Shown: positions 5,810 to 58,793 of the stretch, piece after piece
Numbering within the stretch: the stretch's first letter is position 1
Layout: every line of letters begins with the position of its first letter
From: Archangium lipolyticum
GTDB taxonomy: Bacteria; Myxococcota; Myxococcia; Myxococcales; Myxococcaceae
Direction of reading: 5' to 3'
Assembly: GCF_024623785.1 (NCBI RefSeq)
Contig: NZ_JANKBZ010000010.1
Coordinates: 248,001 to 312,000 of the forward strand
DNA length: 64,000 bases
Program-made: the position numbers and the translations under genes
The notes under the pieces: model-generated
Told to the model about the DNA's origin: nothing
What the model saw: the letters and a program-made list of their open reading frames with translations, nothing else
Database searches by the model: none

Positions 5810-6352
5810 CTAGGGAGCGGCGGGCGGGGGTTCCTTCGACTCCTCACCCTGAGCGCTGGGGGACTCCGGGGCCGGTTCCCTCGCCTTTCGTCTCTTGGAC
5901 CCCCTCCCATTCCTCGCCATCCGTTCCTCCAGGATCATCGCCTTCCGCTCCTTCCGCTCCTTCCGCTCCTTCGCTTCGACCCCCCAGGCCGAGGGACGGG
6001 CAAGCACCAGAGGCATCCCACGGGCGCTCCACGGGAACAGGACGATATCCCCGTCAACGTCGTCCAGTGACTCGGGGAGGGTGATCGCGTTGTGAGGCCC
6101 CCAGATGTGCTCTGGGTCCTCCTCTCCACGAATCACCCGACGCACTTGCTCGAAGCGTCCCCTCACCAGGGAGAGTATGGAGAGGATGCATACGGGGGCA
6201 TTCGCCTCCGTCTCATCATCCATGAAGCCCTTGCGGGTCTGGTAGTCCGCGAGGATCTCCGCTCCCCGTGTGGCACTTGCCAGGGTGGATAGCTCCAGGT
6301 CGAGGCTAACCGCCCTCGGTTCCTGGCTCCTTACCTCGGTCTCTTCGGTCAT
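5810..6352 (-). CDS. Hypothetical protein with basic, repetitive C-terminus
   Basis: The chosen start, ATG 6352 (MTEETEVRSQ), gives 180 residues; an ATG at 6388 lacks a ribosome site and lies inside the operator region. The protein has a mixed alpha/beta middle (CILSILSLVRGRFEQVRRVI, GDIVLFPWSARGMPLVLA). Its low-complexity tail contains three KER units (KERKERKERK, a 9-bp DNA repeat) and Pro/Ala/Glu-rich residues. No family recognised. It is transcribed away from the XRE regulator across a shared 160-bp control region, so it is probably the regulated target of that repressor. Confidence 0.6.
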   Translation of the reverse strand: MTEETEVRSQEPRAVSLDLELSTLASATRGAEILADYQTRKGFMDDETEANAPVCILSILSLVRGRFEQVRRVIRGEEDPEHIWGPHNAITLPESLDDVDGDIVLFPWSARGMPLVLARPSAWGVEAKERKERKERKAMILEERMARNGRGSKRRKAREPAPESPSAQGEESKEPPPAAP

Positions 6353-6389
6353 GCAGGCCGTCCTTTCGTCGATTGGGCCGGCAGACATG

Positions 6390-6496
6390 GTAACTCGTAT
6401 GTGGTGTAACTCGTCAGTTACATGACCTGTGGGCTAATGCGGCCGTAGCCGCCCAATAAGGTCGGAAACATACGAGTTGTGTAACTTGTGAGTTGA
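6390..6496. promoter_or_regulatory. Divergent control region with repeated GTAACT/AGTTAC operator-like palindromes
   Basis: Between the divergent genes there are two 16-bp dyads of the form GTAACT-N4-AGTTAC: 6406-6421 (perfect 6-bp arms) and 6481-6496 (arm ending GA). Outside them lie inverted partners: TAACTCGTATG at 6391-6401 and CATACGAGTT at 6469-6478. This spaced, repeated dyad array is what a phage-type Cro/CI or XRE repressor uses to control two promoters. The XRE gene starts 18 bp downstream. The binding protein is inferred. Confidence 0.65.
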
Positions 6497-6514
6497 CCCG
6501 GCCAATGTCGCCTC

Positions 6515-6817
6515 GTGCCTGCCGCCCCTCGCAAGTCACCTCACTCCCACGGACCTTCCGAAGTTCGGACACGGAAGGACTTGGCTCCCCTTATCAAGCG
6601 GGAGCTAAAGCGCCTCGGGAAGCGACTCCGAGAACTTCGGGAAGAGCGGGGGCTTACTCAGGAGCAGGCCGCCGAGATGATCGGGGTTCACCCCAAGTCG
6701 ATGCCGCGCATAGAGGGAGGCACCGCGAATCCCACGGTGGCTACCCTGGTAGCCGCATCCGTGGCCTACAAGGTCCCTTTGCGCGACCTGTTCCCCGAGG
6801 AAGAACAGGGAACTTGA
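6515..6817 (+). CDS. XRE-family transcriptional regulator
   Basis: The 100-residue protein begins at GTG 6515 without an obvious ribosome site. The Cro/CI-type helix-turn-helix spans about residues 34-92, with GLTQEQAAEMIGVHPKSMPR as helices 2-3 and a typical hydrophobic end (TLVAASVAYKVPLRDLF). Small XRE proteins of this kind are repressors of mobile elements or antitoxin-like regulators. It faces away from the 180-residue unknown gene, with palindromic sites between, so autoregulation plus control of that gene is likely. Carried on the tRNA element. Confidence 0.88.
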   Translation: MPAAPRKSPHSHGPSEVRTRKDLAPLIKRELKRLGKRLRELREERGLTQEQAAEMIGVHPKSMPRIEGGTANPTVATLVAASVAYKVPLRDLFPEEEQGT

Positions 6818-7004
6818 TCCACCGGGCTGCCTTGAAGAACCCGGGAGGCGGCGGAGGAGAGCCGCCTTAGACCGAGCACGGGGCGCCGGAGCGGACCCAC
6901 GGGAAGGCGCCCAGGAGCCCCGGAGACCCGAGCCGCTAACCCGAGACCCCGGAGCCCCGAGGCCCCGAAAGAGGCCCAGCGGGGCACCGGATGTTCTCCT
7001 AGCG
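6818..7004. other. Intergenic stretch with a hairpin and CCCCGGAG-type low-complexity DNA
   Basis: No gene seen. AGGCGGC (6846-6852) pairs with GCCGCCT (6861-6867) just after the XRE gene, a possible weak terminator without a T-run. From about 6908 to 6968 the DNA is an irregular run of short units such as GAGCCCCGGAGACCCGAG, which may simply be GC-rich drift in a decaying element. Confidence 0.4.
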
Positions 7005-7532
7005 CTACTTTTTGATGATGGCAGGCACCGTGAATCGCCACGCGGGATGTGGTCGTAGGATGGACCCCGGCTTCGCAGCGTTGGCCCTTTCGCCGTTGAG
7101 CTTGAGCAGATACGAGCGCGGGATGTTGAGCGCGTACCCACCTCCCGTCAGGGGCACTGCGCCTTCCGGTGCGGTCCCAACTAGTCCCCGGTTCTGAATG
7201 TCCACGGACAACTCGTGAGCGCGCAAGAAGTCGAATCCAATCAGCACCTCCTCTGCGTCCGGGATACAGATCACATCGAGGGTCGACTTAAACCCCTGCT
7301 CCTCGTACATCGTCCAGGCGACGAGGCACCGGTATACGTCGCGGGCCGTCGGTTCGTACCCTGGACTCGACACGTCGATTGTGCCGCACGGGTCGAGTTC
7401 AAGCTCGTCGACGACCGCCTGCGTAATGCACGTTTGCTGCGCGCCGATGTCAATGACCGCGTTGGCGGTGGTGTACGAGCGGGTCCCGTTGCGAAACGTA
7501 AACTCCTCAACGACCTCCAACCCTTGGCTCAT
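7005..7532 (-). CDS. Retropepsin-like (single-domain aspartic protease fold) protein
   Basis: The start ATG 7532 (MSQGLEVVEEFTFRNG) has the strong ribosome site CAGGAGG; 175 residues. Residues about 20-40 read NAVIDIGAQQTCITQAVVDE, which matches the retropepsin active-site loop 'xxxDTGAxxxxI' with Ile in place of Thr/Ser. Further on, EEVLIGFDFLRAHELSVDI matches the conserved 'LLGxDxLxxxxLxID' strand pair. This is the fold of bacterial clan AA aspartic proteases, active as dimers. The Thr-to-Ile change next to the catalytic Asp may reduce or abolish activity. It is cargo of the tRNA element, with no visible partner gene. Confidence 0.7.
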   Translation of the reverse strand: MSQGLEVVEEFTFRNGTRSYTTANAVIDIGAQQTCITQAVVDELELDPCGTIDVSSPGYEPTARDVYRCLVAWTMYEEQGFKSTLDVICIPDAEEVLIGFDFLRAHELSVDIQNRGLVGTAPEGAVPLTGGGYALNIPRSYLLKLNGERANAAKPGSILRPHPAWRFTVPAIIKK

Positions 7533-7940
7533 TCGATCCTCCTGTAGCGCGGCGTTGCAGCGCTCCAAACCCGGAGATACGCCGGGGCTCGATCCCGTCA
7601 AATTCTCATACACGCCGGTTCGTGCCCTTGTCGTTCTGGCGGACAGAGCAGAACCCCCACAGCCTCCCGCTCGGCTTCCTGCGAGCCGCGCGGCGTGGAG
7701 GGCCCACGGCGGCGCCCTGACGCGCTGAGCGGGCCCAGGCGCGACGAACGGCCACGGGCGAGGGGCAGGGAAGGGCGCGGCGTAGGAGGGTCCACGGAGG
7801 CCCCTGGCGCGGCTGCGGCGCGGGCTCTGGGGAGGACACCCCAGGGGGGCCTTCGAGACCTATGGACCCTCAGCCTTGCGACCGCGCCCCAGTCAATTTC
7901 TCGCGCCGTCAAAATCCTAGTCCCTTTTCGGAGCCCACCC
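7533..7940. other. Intergenic region, no gene recognised
   Basis: About 400 bp upstream of the terminase fragment. All reading frames give low-complexity Arg/Ala/Pro-rich translations without motifs. It may be degraded phage DNA. Confidence 0.4.
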
Positions 7941-8115
7941 ATGCCCACATCTGGACTCACCGCAGGACGCCCGCCCAAGCCCGACGAGTTGAAGCGCCTG
8001 GAGGGCACCGTCCGGAAGGACCGGGACACAACCCCCGGGCGCCCGCTACGGCGCCGCTGGCGGCCCTCCCGCGCCCTCCAGACCTCACGGGGCGGGAGCG
8101 GGCGCTTTGCTTGTC
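7941..8115 (+). pseudogene. Fragment of phage terminase small subunit, frameshifted
   Basis: From ATG 7941 the frame reads MPTSGLTAGRPPKPDELKRL then EGTVRKDRD, the typical N-terminus of P27-type terminase small subunits ('GxPPKPTxLKxLEGNPGK'). Homology then continues in another frame (RAPATAPLAALPRPPDLTGR then ERAL), matching the usual 'PxPPxxLxxxAxxxW' stretch that follows. A frameshift near 8030 therefore separates the two parts, and the rest of the gene is missing. It shows the element descends from a phage or phage satellite. No large terminase, portal or capsid gene is nearby. Confidence 0.55.
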
Positions 8116-9471
8116 ACCCCGTTCCCCCCTTGCTACGGCTGTTCTTGCGGGCACGGCTGGCCGGCCAGCCAGGTTCCCAGGTCTGGCGGCCCGCACCTTC
8201 TCAGCCTGGGGGAACGCCTGGGAGCGTTCATGCCAGCAACGAGAGCGGCACGCGCAACGCGCCTGCCGGTTCACGGGCGCACGGCCGGGCGAGGGGCGGC
8301 GGCTGCATCGCTTTCGCGGCGCTCCTGGTACGCGCAGAACTTCGCCGGACAGCTCCGCTCGCAGGGAGACCGGCGCGCGGCTGAGAAGCACCTCCGCCCC
8401 CGCCTGAGTGCGCTGGCTCTTCCCGAGGTGACAGCGGCCCGCATCGATGAGGCGCTCTCGGCCGCTGCGGACGCGCTCACGCCCAAGTCGCTCAACAACC
8501 TCCAGGGTTTCGCACAGACCATCTTCTCCAAGGCCATCCAGCGCGGGCTTTGGATGGGCGCCAACCCTGCGGATGCCGTGCCCCGGCGCAAGGTGCCCAA
8601 GCGCGTGCCGTTCTACCTCAAGGCCGAGGAGGTGGGGCCGGTGCTCGCCCAAGTGCCCACCGAGTGGCGGTGCCTCTTCGCCACTGCCGTCTATACGGGG
8701 ATGCGGCGGGACGAACTCGTGGCCCTCCAGAAGGTGGACGTGGACCTTGAGCAGGGGGAAATCCTCGTCACGCGGAGTTGGGAGGCGGGCACCACGAAGA
8801 GCGGGCGGGCTCGCGTCGTCCCCATCCACCACGAATTGAGGCCCTATCTCGTCCATGCGATGCGAGAGAGCCCCTCGGGGCTGGTGTTCCCCCGCCCGGA
8901 TGGCTCGATGCACTCCCCGAACGTGGACCTTGCCGCGTTGCTCCGCTCGGCGTTGAACCGGGCCCAGCTTGTCGAGGGGTGGGCCCACAAGTGCCGCCGC
9001 TGCGGGCACGTCGAGCACTCGGCTTCCTCCGAGGTGCGCCGCTGCTCCAAGACGGGCTGTGGCTACACGCTCTGGCCCTCGCCCAAGCCGCGCACCATCC
9101 GCTTCCACGACCTGCGGCACACCACGGCCACACTGCTCCTCAAGGCACGGGTGCCGCTGGCGGTGGTGCAGCGCATCCTCGGGCACTCCTCGCCCACCAT
9201 CACGGCGGGGGTCTACGGACATCTCGACGTTGACGACATGCGCGCGGGCCTGGAGCAGCTCAGTTTCCAGCCAGCCGAGGAACCCCTTGCCGAGGTGCTC
9301 CCGCTGGCGGTGGGCGGCCCGCATGGTGCGCCGGTGGTGCGGAACTCGGCGGGGGCGGCTCAACGCGCAGACGCCTCCTGGGAGATTCCCGAGGCGCTGT
9401 GCGGGGTTAAGGGGAATGGGCCCTCCTGGATTCGAACCAGGGACCAATCGGTTATGAGCCGACAGCTCTGA
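8107..9471 (+). CDS. Tyrosine recombinase / integrase with a zinc-ribbon insertion
   Basis: The protein has up to 454 residues. The SAM-like core-binding domain lies near 73-160 and the catalytic domain near 165-375, with Arg200 (TGMRRDEL), Lys231, H334-x-x-R337 (HDLRH), His360 (GHSSPTI) and nucleophile Tyr370 (VYGHL) all present. Between the beta-sheet and the HxxR box there is a C-x2-C...C-x4-C ribbon (Cys296, 299, 313, 318), an insertion absent from classic phage integrases. The TTG start at 8107 is uncertain, and the first 70 residues look poor, so the N-terminus may begin later. The last residues (WIRTRDQSVMSRQL) are encoded by the antisense of the tRNA att site, so the protein tail changes on excision. 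Confidence 0.88.
   Translation: MLVTPFPPCYGCSCGHGWPASQVPRSGGPHLLSLGERLGAFMPATRAARATRLPVHGRTAGRGAAAASLSRRSWYAQNFAGQLRSQGDRRAAEKHLRPRLSALALPEVTAARIDEALSAAADALTPKSLNNLQGFAQTIFSKAIQRGLWMGANPADAVPRRKVPKRVPFYLKAEEVGPVLAQVPTEWRCLFATAVYTGMRRDELVALQKVDVDLEQGEILVTRSWEAGTTKSGRARVVPIHHELRPYLVHAMRESPSGLVFPRPDGSMHSPNVDLAALLRSALNRAQLVEGWAHKCRRCGHVEHSASSEVRRCSKTGCGYTLWPSPKPRTIRFHDLRHTTATLLLKARVPLAVVQRILGHSSPTITAGVYGHLDVDDMRAGLEQLSFQPAEEPLAEVLPLAVGGPHGAPVVRNSAGAAQRADASWEIPEALCGVKGNGPSWIRTRDQSVMSRQL
9324..9345 (+). repeat. 22-bp repeat shared by both ends of the element, right copy
   Basis: Exact match to 4189-4210 in the same orientation. It lies inside the integrase 3' coding region, about 65 bp from attR. 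See the left copy. Confidence 0.45.
9409..9461. repeat. attR: 3' part of the intact tRNA gene
   Basis: Matches 4010-4062 over 53 bp with one mismatch. On this side the repeat is fused to the 5' part of the tRNA, so the gene remains whole after integration. Confidence 0.85.
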
Positions 9472-53701: not shown

Positions 53702-54151
53702 ATGTCGATCAACTACGTTCTGTACATGGCGGAATCATGGAGTCCGCGCGAAGCGCTTCGTGAGGTCACCCACCGCGTCCAGCTTCCGGAGGAGGCCCCT
53801 CGCTCCGGGAAACAGGTCGAGGAGACCACCGCGATTCCGCACCTCTGGGTGGTCGCCACCCAACCGAAGCCCCCGGTCGACGACTATGTGCGCGAGGACC
53901 ATGGCTTTCTTCCAAAGCTCCGCCTCCACATCCGCTTGGACAAATCGAACCTCCACGAAGCAGAGGATCACCTGCTCGACCTGGTGAGCCAGATCCTCCT
54001 CCGCAGTACATCAGACGTGGTCCTGCTCCGGGAGGAAGACTCCGTGGTGCTGCTCCGTCGAGAGGGACGGTTGGAGATTCACGCCGACGCGTTGTGGTCC
54101 TCTCCCGAGCGTCGAGCGCGGCTGGAGAAACTGCTGCGTGAGAGAGTCTGA
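53702..54151 (+). CDS. Possible SitI3-type orphan immunity protein
   Basis: The 149-residue protein begins MSINYVLYMAESWSPREALR and contains LHIRLDKSNLHEAEDHLLDL and LLRSTSDVVLLREEDSVVLL then RREGRLEIHADALWSSPERR. The pattern 'YxLxxAxxxxPxxAL...RLDK...DVVLLxxxxxVVLLRRxGxL...' is how I recall SitI3-type immunity proteins of myxobacteria. No SitA toxin gene is next to it; instead an IS3 remnant sits upstream, which may have removed the toxin. Ribosome site weak (AGAGGGAATGAGGC). Confidence 0.5.
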   Translation: MSINYVLYMAESWSPREALREVTHRVQLPEEAPRSGKQVEETTAIPHLWVVATQPKPPVDDYVREDHGFLPKLRLHIRLDKSNLHEAEDHLLDLVSQILLRSTSDVVLLREEDSVVLLRREGRLEIHADALWSSPERRARLEKLLRERV

Positions 54152-54181: not shown

Positions 54182-56065
54182 TCACTCCACCCGCACCATC
54201 GTCCAGGGCTCGTAGAGCGCCAGCCCTCGCGGGCCCTGGAGTCCGAACTGGTACCAGAGCTGGCCTCCCGAGATGTCCGAGTCCTCCCGCCAGTGGGGGC
54301 CGGTGCCAGAGTAGGGGCCGTCGAACTCGTGGTGGCTGGCCTTCTCATCCGGACGGAAACGGCAGACCACCTTCCAGCCCTCGGGGAGTGTCCCGTCCAC
54401 GATGGCCCGGATGCCCACCTGTCCCTCTTCGTCCCGCTCCAGTGCCCCTCGCGGGCGCGGGAGTGCGTCGATGACCTGGCGTCGATGCTCCGCCTGCTCG
54501 TCCAGATAGGCGAAGAAGTCGTCGAACACCTGGGACAGGTCGATGCCCGCCGTCTGGAAGGCGTCCTGCCATGCCAGGGTGCCTTCGAGGTTCTCGGGCG
54601 CGTCCTTCCTCCCGAGCGCCGCGAGGACTCGCGCCGGGGCTTCGTCTCCATGCCTCCGCACGAGCACCTCGATGAAGGCCCTCCCCAACGGGTACACCTG
54701 ATTCTCATCCCGCTCGGCCGCGAGCTTCTCCGGCTCGAGCAGCTCCTCGGTCCTCACCTCGCGCCGGGCCCGGGCCGCCGCCGCGATCAGCTGGTACTCC
54801 TCCTCCGCGCCGGGCGCTCGGAAGAACCGGTACTCCACATAGGCGGCCAGGCCCTCGCTGAGCAGATTCATGCTCGACAGGCGCGGGGCGGCGTCGGCTC
54901 CGGTGATGCGCTGGGCGAGCACGTGCGTCGTCTCATGTCCGAGCACGGCGAGCGCCTCCTCGGGACTCGAGAGCCCGGAGAGGTTCATCCTCAGCGTGTT
55001 CCAGTACGCGGTGCCCGCGGTGTGCCGTGTGCTCCCGCCGAGGTCCGCGCGGATGGGCACTCCCTCTTCCACCCCCAGGAAGGTGCGCACCTGGTTGAAG
55101 ACACCATCCGCACCGCCCACGAGCGGCTCGGTGCGCTTCCTCTGACTGGCGGGGTAGGTGAACTGGTAGTGCCGGGTCGCCGCCTGCGCGGTGGCGGTGG
55201 TGGGGAACTGGACCCTGGGTTTGTCGCCGCCGCTGTTCTCCGCTGAATCGTCGTTCACGGCCCAGAGGGAGAAGGTCGCGAGGAACAACCCGATGGTGGC
55301 GACGGTGGCCAGCGTCCCCATCCACGAGCCCTGGAGCCGCCGCAGCACGGAGGCGACGAGCCGCTCCCCCAGGCCGAGGAACTGTGCCAGCGCCAGCGCG
55401 AGCAGCACACAGGCCACGGAGAGCTGGAGGCCCAGCGCCTTCAAGGGCCAGCGCCAATGCAGGCCCTCGAAGCGTGGCTCCGTGAGACGTATCGGGTTGA
55501 GGGCGGACAGCCAGGGCATCCGCTCCTCGAGGATCGACTGGCTCAGCATCAGCACCGCCAGCACCGTCCAACAGAGCCGCCGCAGGGGCGCCAGGGCCAG
55601 TGCGAGCGCGAGCACCGTGAGCGCCTGGGCCACCCGCAGCACCGTGCCCACCGCCATCACATCCAGGTGCAGGCCGGGGTCGAGAGAGGTGGCGGAGAGC
55701 GCGTGCTGGCCCATCATCCACACGCCCATCCCGAGCGGGTACACCAGGACGGTGCCGAGCGCGACGAGCAGCTTCACCCCGAAGAGGCTCCACCGCGAGG
55801 TGGGCAGCGCGTCCAGGAACTCCAACGTGCGGTCATCCTGTTCGCGCACGAGCAGGCCACTGCCCAGCGCGAAGGCGAGGATGAACGTCATCATGGACAG
55901 GTCGCCCTCCGGCTCGAACCGCTTGACGAAGGACTCCGCGTAGGGCGAGAGCCCCAGGGGCTCGGTCCACAGGGTCCCGACCACTTCGATCGCCAGGAAG
56001 AACAGGGCGAGCCAGAGGAACGGCCGCTGGTCGCGCAGCTCCTTGGTCACGAGCGGGCGGATCAT
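54182..56065 (-). CDS. ABC-2 permease fused to a gluzincin-type metallopeptidase domain (active-site intact)
   Basis: Start ATG 56065 (MIRPLVTKELRDQRPFLWLA) with ribosome site GGAAGGAGATCCG; 627 residues. Residues 1-270 form an ABC-2 permease with six transmembrane segments. After a periplasmic linker, residues about 330-627 hold a zinc peptidase with HETTH (His377, Glu378, His381) and the downstream ligand box LLSEGLAAYVEYRF. The pairing resembles ABC-2/M1 fusions. It overlaps the sister gene upstream by 4 bp and is served by the ATPase gene upstream of that. Confidence 0.8.
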   Translation of the reverse strand: MIRPLVTKELRDQRPFLWLALFFLAIEVVGTLWTEPLGLSPYAESFVKRFEPEGDLSMMTFILAFALGSGLLVREQDDRTLEFLDALPTSRWSLFGVKLLVALGTVLVYPLGMGVWMMGQHALSATSLDPGLHLDVMAVGTVLRVAQALTVLALALALAPLRRLCWTVLAVLMLSQSILEERMPWLSALNPIRLTEPRFEGLHWRWPLKALGLQLSVACVLLALALAQFLGLGERLVASVLRRLQGSWMGTLATVATIGLFLATFSLWAVNDDSAENSGGDKPRVQFPTTATAQAATRHYQFTYPASQRKRTEPLVGGADGVFNQVRTFLGVEEGVPIRADLGGSTRHTAGTAYWNTLRMNLSGLSSPEEALAVLGHETTHVLAQRITGADAAPRLSSMNLLSEGLAAYVEYRFFRAPGAEEEYQLIAAAARARREVRTEELLEPEKLAAERDENQVYPLGRAFIEVLVRRHGDEAPARVLAALGRKDAPENLEGTLAWQDAFQTAGIDLSQVFDDFFAYLDEQAEHRRQVIDALPRPRGALERDEEGQVGIRAIVDGTLPEGWKVVCRFRPDEKASHHEFDGPYSGTGPHWREDSDISGGQLWYQFGLQGPRGLALYEPWTMVRVE

Positions 56066-57918
56066 CGGATCTCCTTCCGTTCCGCCAGCAGGCGGATGGG
56101 GCACCCGAGCGGCTCGGACTCCACCTGAAGGACGAAGATCCACCGCTCGCCTCTCACGAGCCCCTGCGGGAGCACCGCCGCCTGGCTGGAGCCCACCGCG
56201 TCCTGCCGGGAGAGCTCATGGAGGTCCACCTCGTTCTCGAAGGGATCGAGCTTGCTATAGAGGAGTGCATACCGCCCGGAGGGCTCCGTCCCTCCCTCCT
56301 CCGAGAGCGTGTGCTCCAGCCGGAAGGTCTCCGCCGACTCCTTCACCAGCGTGAAGGACGGCCGAAGCCGGGACAGGCCGCGCAGCAGCTCCGCCCGCGC
56401 TTCCCGATCCTCATGGAGTTCCTCGTGCCAGCGCTTCGTCAGCTCCTCCTCGGAGGTTCCTCCCAGCTCCCGCAGGAGCGCGTCCAGACGAGGCTCGTTC
56501 CAGAGCCCCCAGAAGCCCGTCCCGGGAGGTTGCGCCAGGATGCGCCGCATGAGGGTCTGGAAGGCGGGCTCACCCAGCTGTCCGTGCAGCGCCCTCACGC
56601 CCCGGGCGGCCAGCGCCCCCGCCAGACACGGTCCGAGGCGCTCCCGCGTGCTCAGCCAGCTCCGGGAGTCGAAGTCCTCCCGCGAGGCCACCGCGGCCCT
56701 CGGTGACAGCCGGGGATCCTCCTCGTCCCGGTTTGCCCACCAGGTGGTGAAGCCGTCGAGCAGCCACTGGCGCTCCTCCCGCCGTGCCGTGCCCTCGCTG
56801 GCCCAGATGAGCACCTCGCGGAAGAGGAAGGACTCGAAGGCGCGCGTGTCGAAGCCCGGGTCCGCGAGGTTGGCCCGGACGACCACCCCATCGGCCTTCT
56901 CGAGCTTCGCGCGCTGGAACACGTCGGCGTCCAGCTCGCGGATGGGCATCACCGCCACGGCTGGAAGCCGCTCGAGCCCGAGGTAGTCACTCAGCGCGGT
57001 CAGGTCTCCCGCGAGCCGCTCCGCCAGCTTCCGTGCCTGCTCTGGCGGGAACCCCACCCCGGGCGCCACCTGGAGGGCCGAGCCCTTCACGCTGGCCTGC
57101 TCCGCCGTGTGCAGGGCGAAGGGCTTGCGTTGCTTCTCCTGCTCCATCACCGAGATCACCGTGAGGAGCCCGACGAAGATACACGCGATGAACACCTTCT
57201 CCCGGTGGCTCATCCGCTGCGAGAGCAGCTCGGCCAGCGTCCCATCCTCGTAGAGCACCAGCGCGAAGCAGAGGGCCACCGCGGCCACCGAGAGGGCCCA
57301 GCACGGACCGAGGTCGTCCCAGGGGATGCGGTGGCGCTCGAAGGCGAAGTCGGCGCCCAGGAGCGCGAAGGGCCCCATCTGGGAGATGTTGAAATCGGTG
57401 AGCTGATCCATCGCGAACAGGGCGAGGGTCAGGAAGATGAAGAGGGGCGTGCGGTAGCGGCCGAGCAACCCGGCGAGCGCGAAGAAGATCCAGCCCAGCA
57501 GCACCGGCGTGCCCGCGCGCAGCACCAGGAGGACGAGGAAGGGCAGGGTGACGTCCTCGTACGCCCGGGCCCGGAGCCCGAGGACGAGCAGGCTCAGTGC
57601 GAGCGGGAGCAGCAGCACCGCCGCCCCGAGCACCAGCTTGGTGGCGAGGATCCGCGCGCGCGAGAGCGGAAGCGACTCGAGGAAGAGCTGGGTCCGCTGG
57701 CCGTATTCGCGCACCACCAGGCGGTGGGCCACGAAGAGCGCCCCCACGGTGGAGAGGAGGATGGAGGACATCCGGAGCAGCTCGAACAGGCTGCCCCTCC
57801 TCGCGTAGCGTGCCTCTCCCACCAGGAAGAGGACCAGCAGGGCTCCGAAGAGGAGGTTGAGGAGGAGCCACGAGCCCCGGTGCTCGCGCCACTCCTTGCG
57901 CAGGAGGGCCCAGGTCAT
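56062..57918 (-). CDS. ABC-2 permease fused to a degenerate peptidase-like domain
   Basis: Start ATG 57918 (MTWALLRKEWREHRGSWLLL); 618 residues. N-terminal ABC-2 membrane region as in the downstream paralogue, with six or so transmembrane helices. The C-terminal half has the same layout but the zinc motif is lost: FREVLIWAS stands where HETTH should be, and LLDGFTTWWANRDE where LLSEGLAAYVEYRF stands. It overlaps the intact paralogue (ATGA) and the ATPase gene (4 bp), so all three form one transporter. Probably a partner subunit without proteolytic activity. Confidence 0.78.
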   Translation of the reverse strand: MTWALLRKEWREHRGSWLLLNLLFGALLVLFLVGEARYARRGSLFELLRMSSILLSTVGALFVAHRLVVREYGQRTQLFLESLPLSRARILATKLVLGAAVLLLPLALSLLVLGLRARAYEDVTLPFLVLLVLRAGTPVLLGWIFFALAGLLGRYRTPLFIFLTLALFAMDQLTDFNISQMGPFALLGADFAFERHRIPWDDLGPCWALSVAAVALCFALVLYEDGTLAELLSQRMSHREKVFIACIFVGLLTVISVMEQEKQRKPFALHTAEQASVKGSALQVAPGVGFPPEQARKLAERLAGDLTALSDYLGLERLPAVAVMPIRELDADVFQRAKLEKADGVVVRANLADPGFDTRAFESFLFREVLIWASEGTARREERQWLLDGFTTWWANRDEEDPRLSPRAAVASREDFDSRSWLSTRERLGPCLAGALAARGVRALHGQLGEPAFQTLMRRILAQPPGTGFWGLWNEPRLDALLRELGGTSEEELTKRWHEELHEDREARAELLRGLSRLRPSFTLVKESAETFRLEHTLSEEGGTEPSGRYALLYSKLDPFENEVDLHELSRQDAVGSSQAAVLPQGLVRGERWIFVLQVESEPLGCPIRLLAERKEIR

Positions 57919-58793
57919 GTCTCGTCCGATCGCCGCGCGTAGGCGAGGAAGATGTGCTCGAGCGACAGGTCCTCCACCGCCTCGGGAGCGAAGCCGCTGG
58001 CTGCCCAATCCTCTGGTGTGCCGAAGAGCACCAGGGCCACGCGCCCATCCGGCGGGCGTTCGCGTCTCACGAGCGAGAGGCCCGGAGGCAGCTGCTCCGG
58101 TGGCGCTTCCAGCACCACCCTCCGGACCGACTGGCGGAGCGCGTCGAGGCTCCCCTGATAGCGCAGCCGGCCCTCGTGGAGGATGCCGATGCGGTGCGCT
58201 ACCTCCTCCAATTCGCCGACGAGGTGGGACGAGAAGAGCGCCGTCTGTCCCTCGCGCCGGACCTGCTCGCGGAGGATGTCGAGGAACTCACGCCGCGCCA
58301 CGGGATCCAACCCGGCGGTGGGCTCGTCGAGGATGAGCAGCGGCGGACGGTGCGCCAGGGCGAGCGCCAACCCCAGCTTCATCCGTGTTCCTCCGGAGAG
58401 CTGCGCGGCCTTGCGATCCTCGGGCACGTCCAGCACCCGGAGGAGCCGCCGGAACGCCGCGTCATCCCAGTCCGGATAGAAGCCGGAGACGAACCGCCCG
58501 AGCTCCAGCGCCGTCATCCAGGGGTAGAAGACCTGCTCCTGCGACACGTAGCCGAGCCGCTGCTTCTGGGCCGCGCGGATCCGGCGGACGCGCTCGCCCA
58601 TCAGCTCGATCTCCCCCTGGTCCGGGCGGAGGATGCCCATCAGCATGCGGAGCGTGGTTGTCTTCCCCGCGCCGTTGCGCCCGAGGAAGCCGTAGACCTC
58701 GCCACGCCTCAGCTCGAGGTCCACCCCATCCACGGCCTTGAAGTGGTCGAAGGAGCGGGTGAGCCCATGCGTACGAAGGAGGACCTCGGACAT
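57915..58793 (-). CDS. ABC transporter ATP-binding protein
   Basis: The 292-residue protein has Walker A GRNGAGKTT, the Q-loop GYVSQEQVFYPWMT, signature LSGGTRMKLGLALALAHRPP, Walker B LLILDEPTAGLDP and H-loop LFSSHLVGELEEVA. CcmA/NatA-type export ATPase for ABC-2 permeases. Overlaps the next gene by 4 bp. First gene of the operon; the substrate is unknown. Confidence 0.95.
   Translation of the reverse strand: MSEVLLRTHGLTRSFDHFKAVDGVDLELRRGEVYGFLGRNGAGKTTTLRMLMGILRPDQGEIELMGERVRRIRAAQKQRLGYVSQEQVFYPWMTALELGRFVSGFYPDWDDAAFRRLLRVLDVPEDRKAAQLSGGTRMKLGLALALAHRPPLLILDEPTAGLDPVARREFLDILREQVRREGQTALFSSHLVGELEEVAHRIGILHEGRLRYQGSLDALRQSVRRVVLEAPPEQLPPGLSLVRRERPPDGRVALVLFGTPEDWAASGFAPEAVEDLSLEHIFLAYARRSDET

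Follow-up and report, generated by a model that had tools for sequence, protein, structure and literature searches.

A putative two-permease ABC transporter of myxobacteria with one intact and one dead peptidase-like domain

Results

Three overlapping genes encode an ABC ATPase and two permeases

The window, i.e. the stretch of 64,000 nucleotides from the 12.6 Mb genome of Archangium lipolyticum that was analysed here, contains three minus-strand genes encoding an ABC ATPase and two permeases, referred to as A and B, which both end in a peptidase-like domain (Table 1). As already described in the initial annotation, whose coordinates are correct, all three genes overlap, with 4 bases shared at the junction of the ATPase gene with A and at that of A with B. 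An ABC ATPase is thus encoded alongside the permeases, as is typical of ABC-2 exporters, and its match to ABC_tran lies above the cut-off; its best NCBIfam model is PmtA, which belongs to the phenol-soluble modulin exporter (178.9 bits compared to a cut-off of 350). With respect to ABC2_membrane, A and B of the window are below the cut-off, whereas across the alignments matches at E ≤ 0.1 were obtained for 13 of 17 A rows (best E 1.8e-6) and for all 14 B rows (best E 3e-10). The first B profile was built from 14 of the 17 B proteins, omitting those of G007, G108 and G110 (cut by contig ends). Among named organisms, protein B is matched best in Archangium lansinium (78% identity) and A. violaceum (77%), and a plasmid search with B gave no match. 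Just past permease B, a frame of 149 residues is located on the opposite strand (window 53702-54151), for which neither Pfam (up to E 0.01) nor blastp against the 15 compared loci gave a match.

Table 1 Genes, domains and key residues of the transporter locus. Positions refer to the window.
Feature	Position	Strand	Basis
ABC ATPase gene, 292 aa	57915..58793	-	Pfam ABC_tran E 4.2e-31, above cut-off
Permease A, 618 aa, dead C-terminal peptidase-like domain	56062..57918	-	ORF; overlaps the ATPase gene
A membrane part, residues 1-266, seven predicted segments	57121..57918	-	ABC2_membrane_2 E 0.0014, below cut-off
A C-terminal pseudo-peptidase domain, residues 267-618	56065..57120	-	Model gluzincin-like over 261-521
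A REVLI, residues 367-371, at the place of HExxH	56806..56820	-	Sequence and alignment
A D388, at the place of the downstream Glu	56755..56757	-	Aligned LLDGF
Permease B, 627 aa, intact HExxH domain	54182..56065	-	ORF; overlaps A
B membrane part, residues 1-285, seven predicted segments	55211..56065	-	ABC2_membrane_2 E 2.5e-5, below cut-off
B C-terminal peptidase domain, residues 286-627	54185..55210	-	Residues 535-627 possible beta sandwich
B HETTH, residues 377-381	54923..54937	-	H, E, H in 19/19
B E404 (in LSEGL), predicted third zinc ligand	54854..54856	-	E in 19/19
B Y458, predicted catalytic Tyr	54692..54694	-	Tyr in 18/18 rows reaching the position

The zinc site is intact in B and lost in A

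Of the 195 Myxococcota genomes searched, 19 contain a full-length B-type match, and it is these 19 that also contain an A-type match; 21 further genomes contained partial B-type matches only. In the carrier genomes A and B adjoin each other, and an adjacent ATPase gene is present in 17 of the 19; in one of the other two (G110) a contig end cuts the locus, and in G106 there is no adjacent ATPase gene. Upstream of the A and B genes of G106, at locus L046 (5035-6975), we noted a gene on the other strand that we read as kinase-like.

In B, the residues H377, E378, H381 and E404 are kept in 19/19 genomes, and the spacing from HExxH to the Glu is 22 residues in each of them. All carriers therefore exhibit the HExxH motif plus downstream Glu that characterize gluzincins (clan MA), and Y458 is presumably the catalytic Tyr, a role that we assume from M1 enzymes. 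At the aligned positions of A, the first His is present in 8 and the second-position Glu in 9 of the 19 genomes, whereas the second His, the downstream Glu (Asp in 17) and the Tyr are present in none, which leaves A without the second His and the Glu that a gluzincin zinc site requires. The A protein of G127 aligns poorly around this region. A stray HEELH at A residue 498 is restricted to the window genome, being absent from the other 18, and lies far from the aligned site. The initial annotation had contrasted HETTH and the Glu of LSEGL in B with REVLI and LLDGF in A and had interpreted this as one active and one dead copy. The residues confirm the former, and the latter applies to 19/19 genomes, with B intact and A dead throughout; pairs with both copies active were not found among the Myxococcota genomes searched. 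As the count is 19/19 both for the retention of the residues in B and for the absence of the second His and the Glu from A, we conclude that this contrast is more than chance.

The two C-terminal domains are related in profile comparisons

Full-length profiles of A and B are related (E 6.7e-16), which is chiefly due to the membrane parts (E 1.2e-18). For the C-terminal domains alone the comparison was unconvincing with profiles of 17 members (E 0.013, probability 3.4), whereas profiles of 19 members yielded E 2e-5 with a probability of 77 and a score of 45.8, in line with the earlier claim that both permeases end in the same domain. As controls, 30 column-shuffled B profiles scored 24.2 at most, and the A domain gave E 0.22 to 0.48 with five unrelated or uncertain partners; these included the M1 part of the ABC-2/M1 fusions considered below, to which the A domain showed no similarity in the profile comparison (E 0.25). 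The A/B profile alignment places FLFR-EVLI of A over HETTH of B and LLDGF over LSEGL. A mixed alignment of A and B sequences for modelling was dropped, because HETTH was located several columns off REVLI.

Predicted topology and structure

Family-averaged hydropathy (threshold 1.15) resulted in seven membrane segments in both A and B, and single-sequence hydropathy (threshold 1.5) in six segments each for A and B of the window. An extra weak segment of A in the family average (428-444) is taken as a helix of the peptidase-like domain. Given seven segments, the C-terminal domains would be located outside if the N-terminus is inside, an orientation that the positive charges favour only mildly. 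Within the A domain, Cys431 is kept in 17 and Cys606 in 18 of the 19 genomes, and this conserved pair would suit a periplasmic disulphide. Based on the seven averaged segments and the conserved cysteines of A, we thus arrive at the same predicted periplasmic location of the domains as the initial annotation; the predictions gave no sign of a cytoplasmic peptidase domain in the Myxococcota genomes searched.

AlphaFold2 models generated from five A rows and five B rows had a mean pLDDT of 52.8 and 50.0, respectively, with the permease parts mostly below 50. The first eight Foldseek rows of the A model were all M1 or M61 peptidases (probability 0.96-1.00), the best E being 0.02 (insulin-regulated aminopeptidase, IRAP; probability 1.00) and none reaching E ≤ 0.001. 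Besides IRAP, the model resembles an M61 peptidase of Myxococcus fulvus as well as M1, M30 and collagenase-type peptidases. In a second comparison, collagenase (Z 12.5, rmsd 4.2, 216 residues) and puromycin-sensitive aminopeptidase (Z 12.0) were matched; the tool warns that Z values below about 13 can reflect a common arrangement in helical proteins, and the top rows of A share one fold. From the model, a thermolysin-like fold is predicted for the A domain.

For the B model, no peptidase was found in the best 50 of 882 Foldseek matches at E ≤ 10, and no match reached E ≤ 0.001, which is probably due to the membrane part being mostly modelled below pLDDT 50. The second comparison returned an M30 peptidase (Z 9.6, rmsd 4.0, 201 residues) and PepN (Z 9.2), both within the range in which the tool warns of common arrangements, and residues 535-627 matched a cytokine-receptor domain with Z up to 8.0. 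Since this comparison was drawn from the same Foldseek list, it is mostly the motif and the profiles that speak for the predicted fold of B, and the fold prediction appears better for A than for B. A sequence search of solved structures with B alone gave no match, and a profile of 13 B domains retrieved 13 sequences, mostly aminopeptidases, all at E 0.45 or worse.

The B domain probably lies close to the Peptidase MA superfamily

M1 peptidases are marked by a GxMEN motif and a HExxH-x18-E spacing. Membership in M1, for which the initial annotation had proposed a profile search, is not supported: PF01433 matched neither the proteins of the window (E ≤ 1) nor the 14 B rows (E ≤ 0.1), and GxMEN was found in 0/19 B sequences. 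In M1-matching loci of relatives, which served as a control, GxMEN was present in 18/20 and the spacing was 18 in 19/20. Of the two profile comparisons proposed there, that with M1 gave no match, and that with the ABC-2/M1 fusions pointed to a distant relationship of the B permease to their second half (see below). However, nine such fusions from eight genomes, which include the window genome and do not comprise the Myxococcus xanthus fusion Q1D520 itself, contain GxMEN in 0/9 cases and have a spacing of 19 in eight cases and of 16 in one. As these fusions also deviate from both marks, B may still belong to an outlying M1 branch.

PF13485, the Peptidase MA superfamily, matched one of the 14 B rows (E 0.011). 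At weaker E the B profile found seven HExxH proteins, of which five match PF13485 above the cut-off, six have TPR matches and none has an ABC-2 match, and the nearest detectable permease-free relatives of B are mostly Peptidase_MA_2 proteins. Taken together, the absence of a PF01433 match and of the M1 marks and the MA_2 relatives point to the B domain as a gluzincin near the MA superfamily. In related genomes, HEYVH and NEGLAEYVEWRY occur in frames that are 465-764 residues long (L068, L071-L075); the three that were scanned (L068, L074 and L075) have Peptidase_MA_2 above the cut-off and TPR matches.

The window genome also harbours an ABC-2/M1 fusion of 1191 residues (L103 3964-7671, minus strand, contig C15), which is adjoined by its own ABC ATPase gene. 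It matches PF01433 with 42.7 bits and displays 11 segments in a rough scan. Such a single-chain fusion is present in 6/6 genomes of the genus Archangium examined, window genome included. The membrane part of B matched the second, M1-bearing half of the fusions with E 5.6e-7 over 89 columns and the first half with E 0.0018; the corresponding values for the membrane part of A (0.005 and 0.002) are unconvincing, and the B domain matched the M1 part of the fusions weakly (E 0.002). These profiles suggest a distant relationship between the B permease and the M1-bearing second half of the fusions.

Distribution, selection and genomic neighbourhood

The carriers span three family-level lineages, two of which are represented by one genome each, and the class of G124 consists, among the genomes searched, of G124 only. 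In a tree of the membrane parts, the 19 A and the 19 B sequences are split by one branch (support 100/100); the tree program flags both copies of G124 and of G127 as long branches. As A and B form one clade each, a root placed between the copies would date the asymmetry to before these lineages diverged. The dN/dS of the dead A domain ranges from 0.15 to 0.47 in 10 non-independent pairs, and it is lower than that of the A membrane part in 8/10 and higher than that of the B domain in 8/10. From this we conclude that the dead domain of A is under purifying selection and that it is kept somewhat less strictly than the B domain.

Beyond the three genes, no neighbour family is common to all clades in the 13 loci compared, a set without the loci of G007, G039 and G110, whose contigs are short. 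Neighbour genes are common to the compared Archangium loci and G061 and not to the other clades, and one further gene is common to one Archangium locus and Citreicoccus. The initial annotation had proposed a search for small peptides nearby as possible substrates; no substrate candidate was found near the operon among the genes of at least 40 codons in these 13 loci. In the Archangium genome G004, the three genes are missing while the flanking DNA corresponds to that of the window on either side, with about 2.8 kb of other DNA (L125 5517-8319) in place of window 51.8-58.9 kb; this absence with matching flanks indicates that the operon is accessory. The replacement DNA itself contains a frame (6181-8262, minus strand) that we read as a subtilisin-like protease.

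Discussion

A two-part myxobacterial pump with one dead peptidase domain suggests a pump that might cut what it handles. Our main reading, to which we assign a probability of roughly 0.4, is a heterodimeric ABC-2-type exporter with one ATPase, in which B would act as a periplasmic zinc endopeptidase and A as a pseudo-peptidase and which would cut an exported peptide or protein. A and B would pair as a heterodimer served by the one ATPase gene, each half presenting a predicted gluzincin-fold domain in the periplasm; ATP-driven movement would deliver this substrate to B, whose zinc endopeptidase-like site would cleave it during or after its exit from the membrane. The A pseudo-peptidase could dock the substrate, shape the B site or hold the pair together. 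Heterodimer formation, export, cutting and the role of A are what we infer from the sequences. Consistent with this reading are the ABC_tran match of the ATPase, the repeated weak ABC2_membrane matches, the co-occurrence of A and B in 19/195 genomes, the residue contrast in 19/19, the dN/dS of A, its gluzincin-like model and the apparent distant kinship of the B permease with the fusions. It is weakened by the lack of a substrate candidate and of a shared neighbour family in 13 loci, by the missing ATPase gene in G106, by permease parts mostly below pLDDT 50 and by the best 50 Foldseek rows of B, which contain no peptidase.

Alternatively, the ATPase and the permeases might open and close a periplasmic pair of peptidase and pseudo-peptidase while no substrate is moved across the membrane, comparable to FtsEX, which drives cell-wall hydrolases. 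The presence of related domains on both halves, which could therefore move as a clamp, would fit this idea, as would the absence of a shared substrate gene nearby (13 loci) and a dN/dS of the A domain at least as strict as that of the A membrane part in 8/10 pairs; the permeases nevertheless resemble ABC-2 half-transporters. The sequence data agree with export and with this idea alike, and we give the lower probability to the latter. It is also conceivable, albeit unlikely, that the ABC module chiefly powers a live/dead gluzincin clamp as an ATP-driven periplasmic protease, with the dead half feeding or gating the substrate; if true, this clamp would be an envelope counterpart of the cytoplasmic ATP-dependent proteases. 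A self-protection pump, which would expel and destroy toxic or foreign peptides at the inner membrane or in the periplasm, could account for the accessory distribution (19/195 genomes, absent from one Archangium) and for PmtA, a peptide exporter ATPase, as best NCBIfam model at about half its cut-off. Yet the eight neighbour proteins scanned show no Pfam sign of such genes, and in PADLOC neither A nor B was matched, while the matches of the ATPase were of a general ATPase type, so that this explanation seems improbable to us.

The interpretation of A as a dead copy would fail if its C-terminal domain were no degenerate peptidase and resembled one in its motif by chance. Such an origin could explain the E of 0.013 obtained with 17 members, the E of 0.25 against the M1 part of the fusions and the poorly alignable zinc-site region of G127, but it is very unlikely in view of the E of 2e-5 with 19 members, the score of which exceeds those of the shuffled controls, and of an A model that is gluzincin-like even though its alignment contained no B rows. 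A decaying remnant without function would be consistent with the dN/dS of the A domain exceeding that of the B domain in 8/10 pairs; the values of 0.15-0.47 as such, the presence of the domain in 19/19 genomes and the retention of Cys431 and Cys606 in 17 and 18 of 19 make decay extremely improbable.

In our literature search, no live/dead pair was among the matches listed, and we found no paper in which the function of a peptidase-fused ABC-2 transporter was tested. The live/dead split, being fixed in three family-level lineages, represents a clean genetic handle. As the live and the dead site can be changed separately, it can be asked which of the two serves the other, the transporter or the peptidase.

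Among known systems, the Peptidase MA superfamily (PF13485) shares with B the HExxH and xEGLA pattern. Peptidase M1, represented by aminopeptidase N and IRAP, resembles the fold of the A model and has the HExxH, Glu and Tyr of B; its typical GxMEN motif and spacing of 18 contrast with B, which has no GxMEN, a spacing of 22 and no Pfam M1 match. TAF2 of TFIID is a catalytically dead M1 relative and thereby an example of a gluzincin fold without zinc site, and TFIID chains were among the matches of both the A and the B model, although TAF2 belongs to a eukaryotic transcription factor and not to a transporter.

Of the systems described so far, the single-chain ABC-2/M1 fusion (TC 3.A.1.145) comes nearest to A and B, and the fusion of the window genome is of this type. 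The M. xanthus protein Q1D520 (TC 3.A.1.145.1) is described as a single chain with 13 TMS and a Peptidase M1 domain (PMC3924187), and in the passage of that paper dealing with it the function of the peptidase-fused ABC-2 transporter is guessed from its domains (PMC3924187). TC 3.A.1.145 and the A/B system both occur in myxobacteria and combine an ABC-2 permease with a zinc-peptidase domain at the C-terminus, and GxMEN is absent from the fusions as it is from B. TC 3.A.1.145 consists of one chain of about 1200 residues with 13 TMS and one M1 domain, whereas in the A/B system the half-permeases are two proteins and the domain carried by each is smaller, that of A being dead, and the HExxH-Glu spacing is 22 in B compared to 19 (8/9) or 16 (one) in fusions of the TC 3.A.1.145 type. 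With two half-permease genes in place of the single chain, the A/B system is, as judged by sequence, best described as a peptidase-fused ABC-2 transporter in split and doubled form and not as a member of TC 3.A.1.145.
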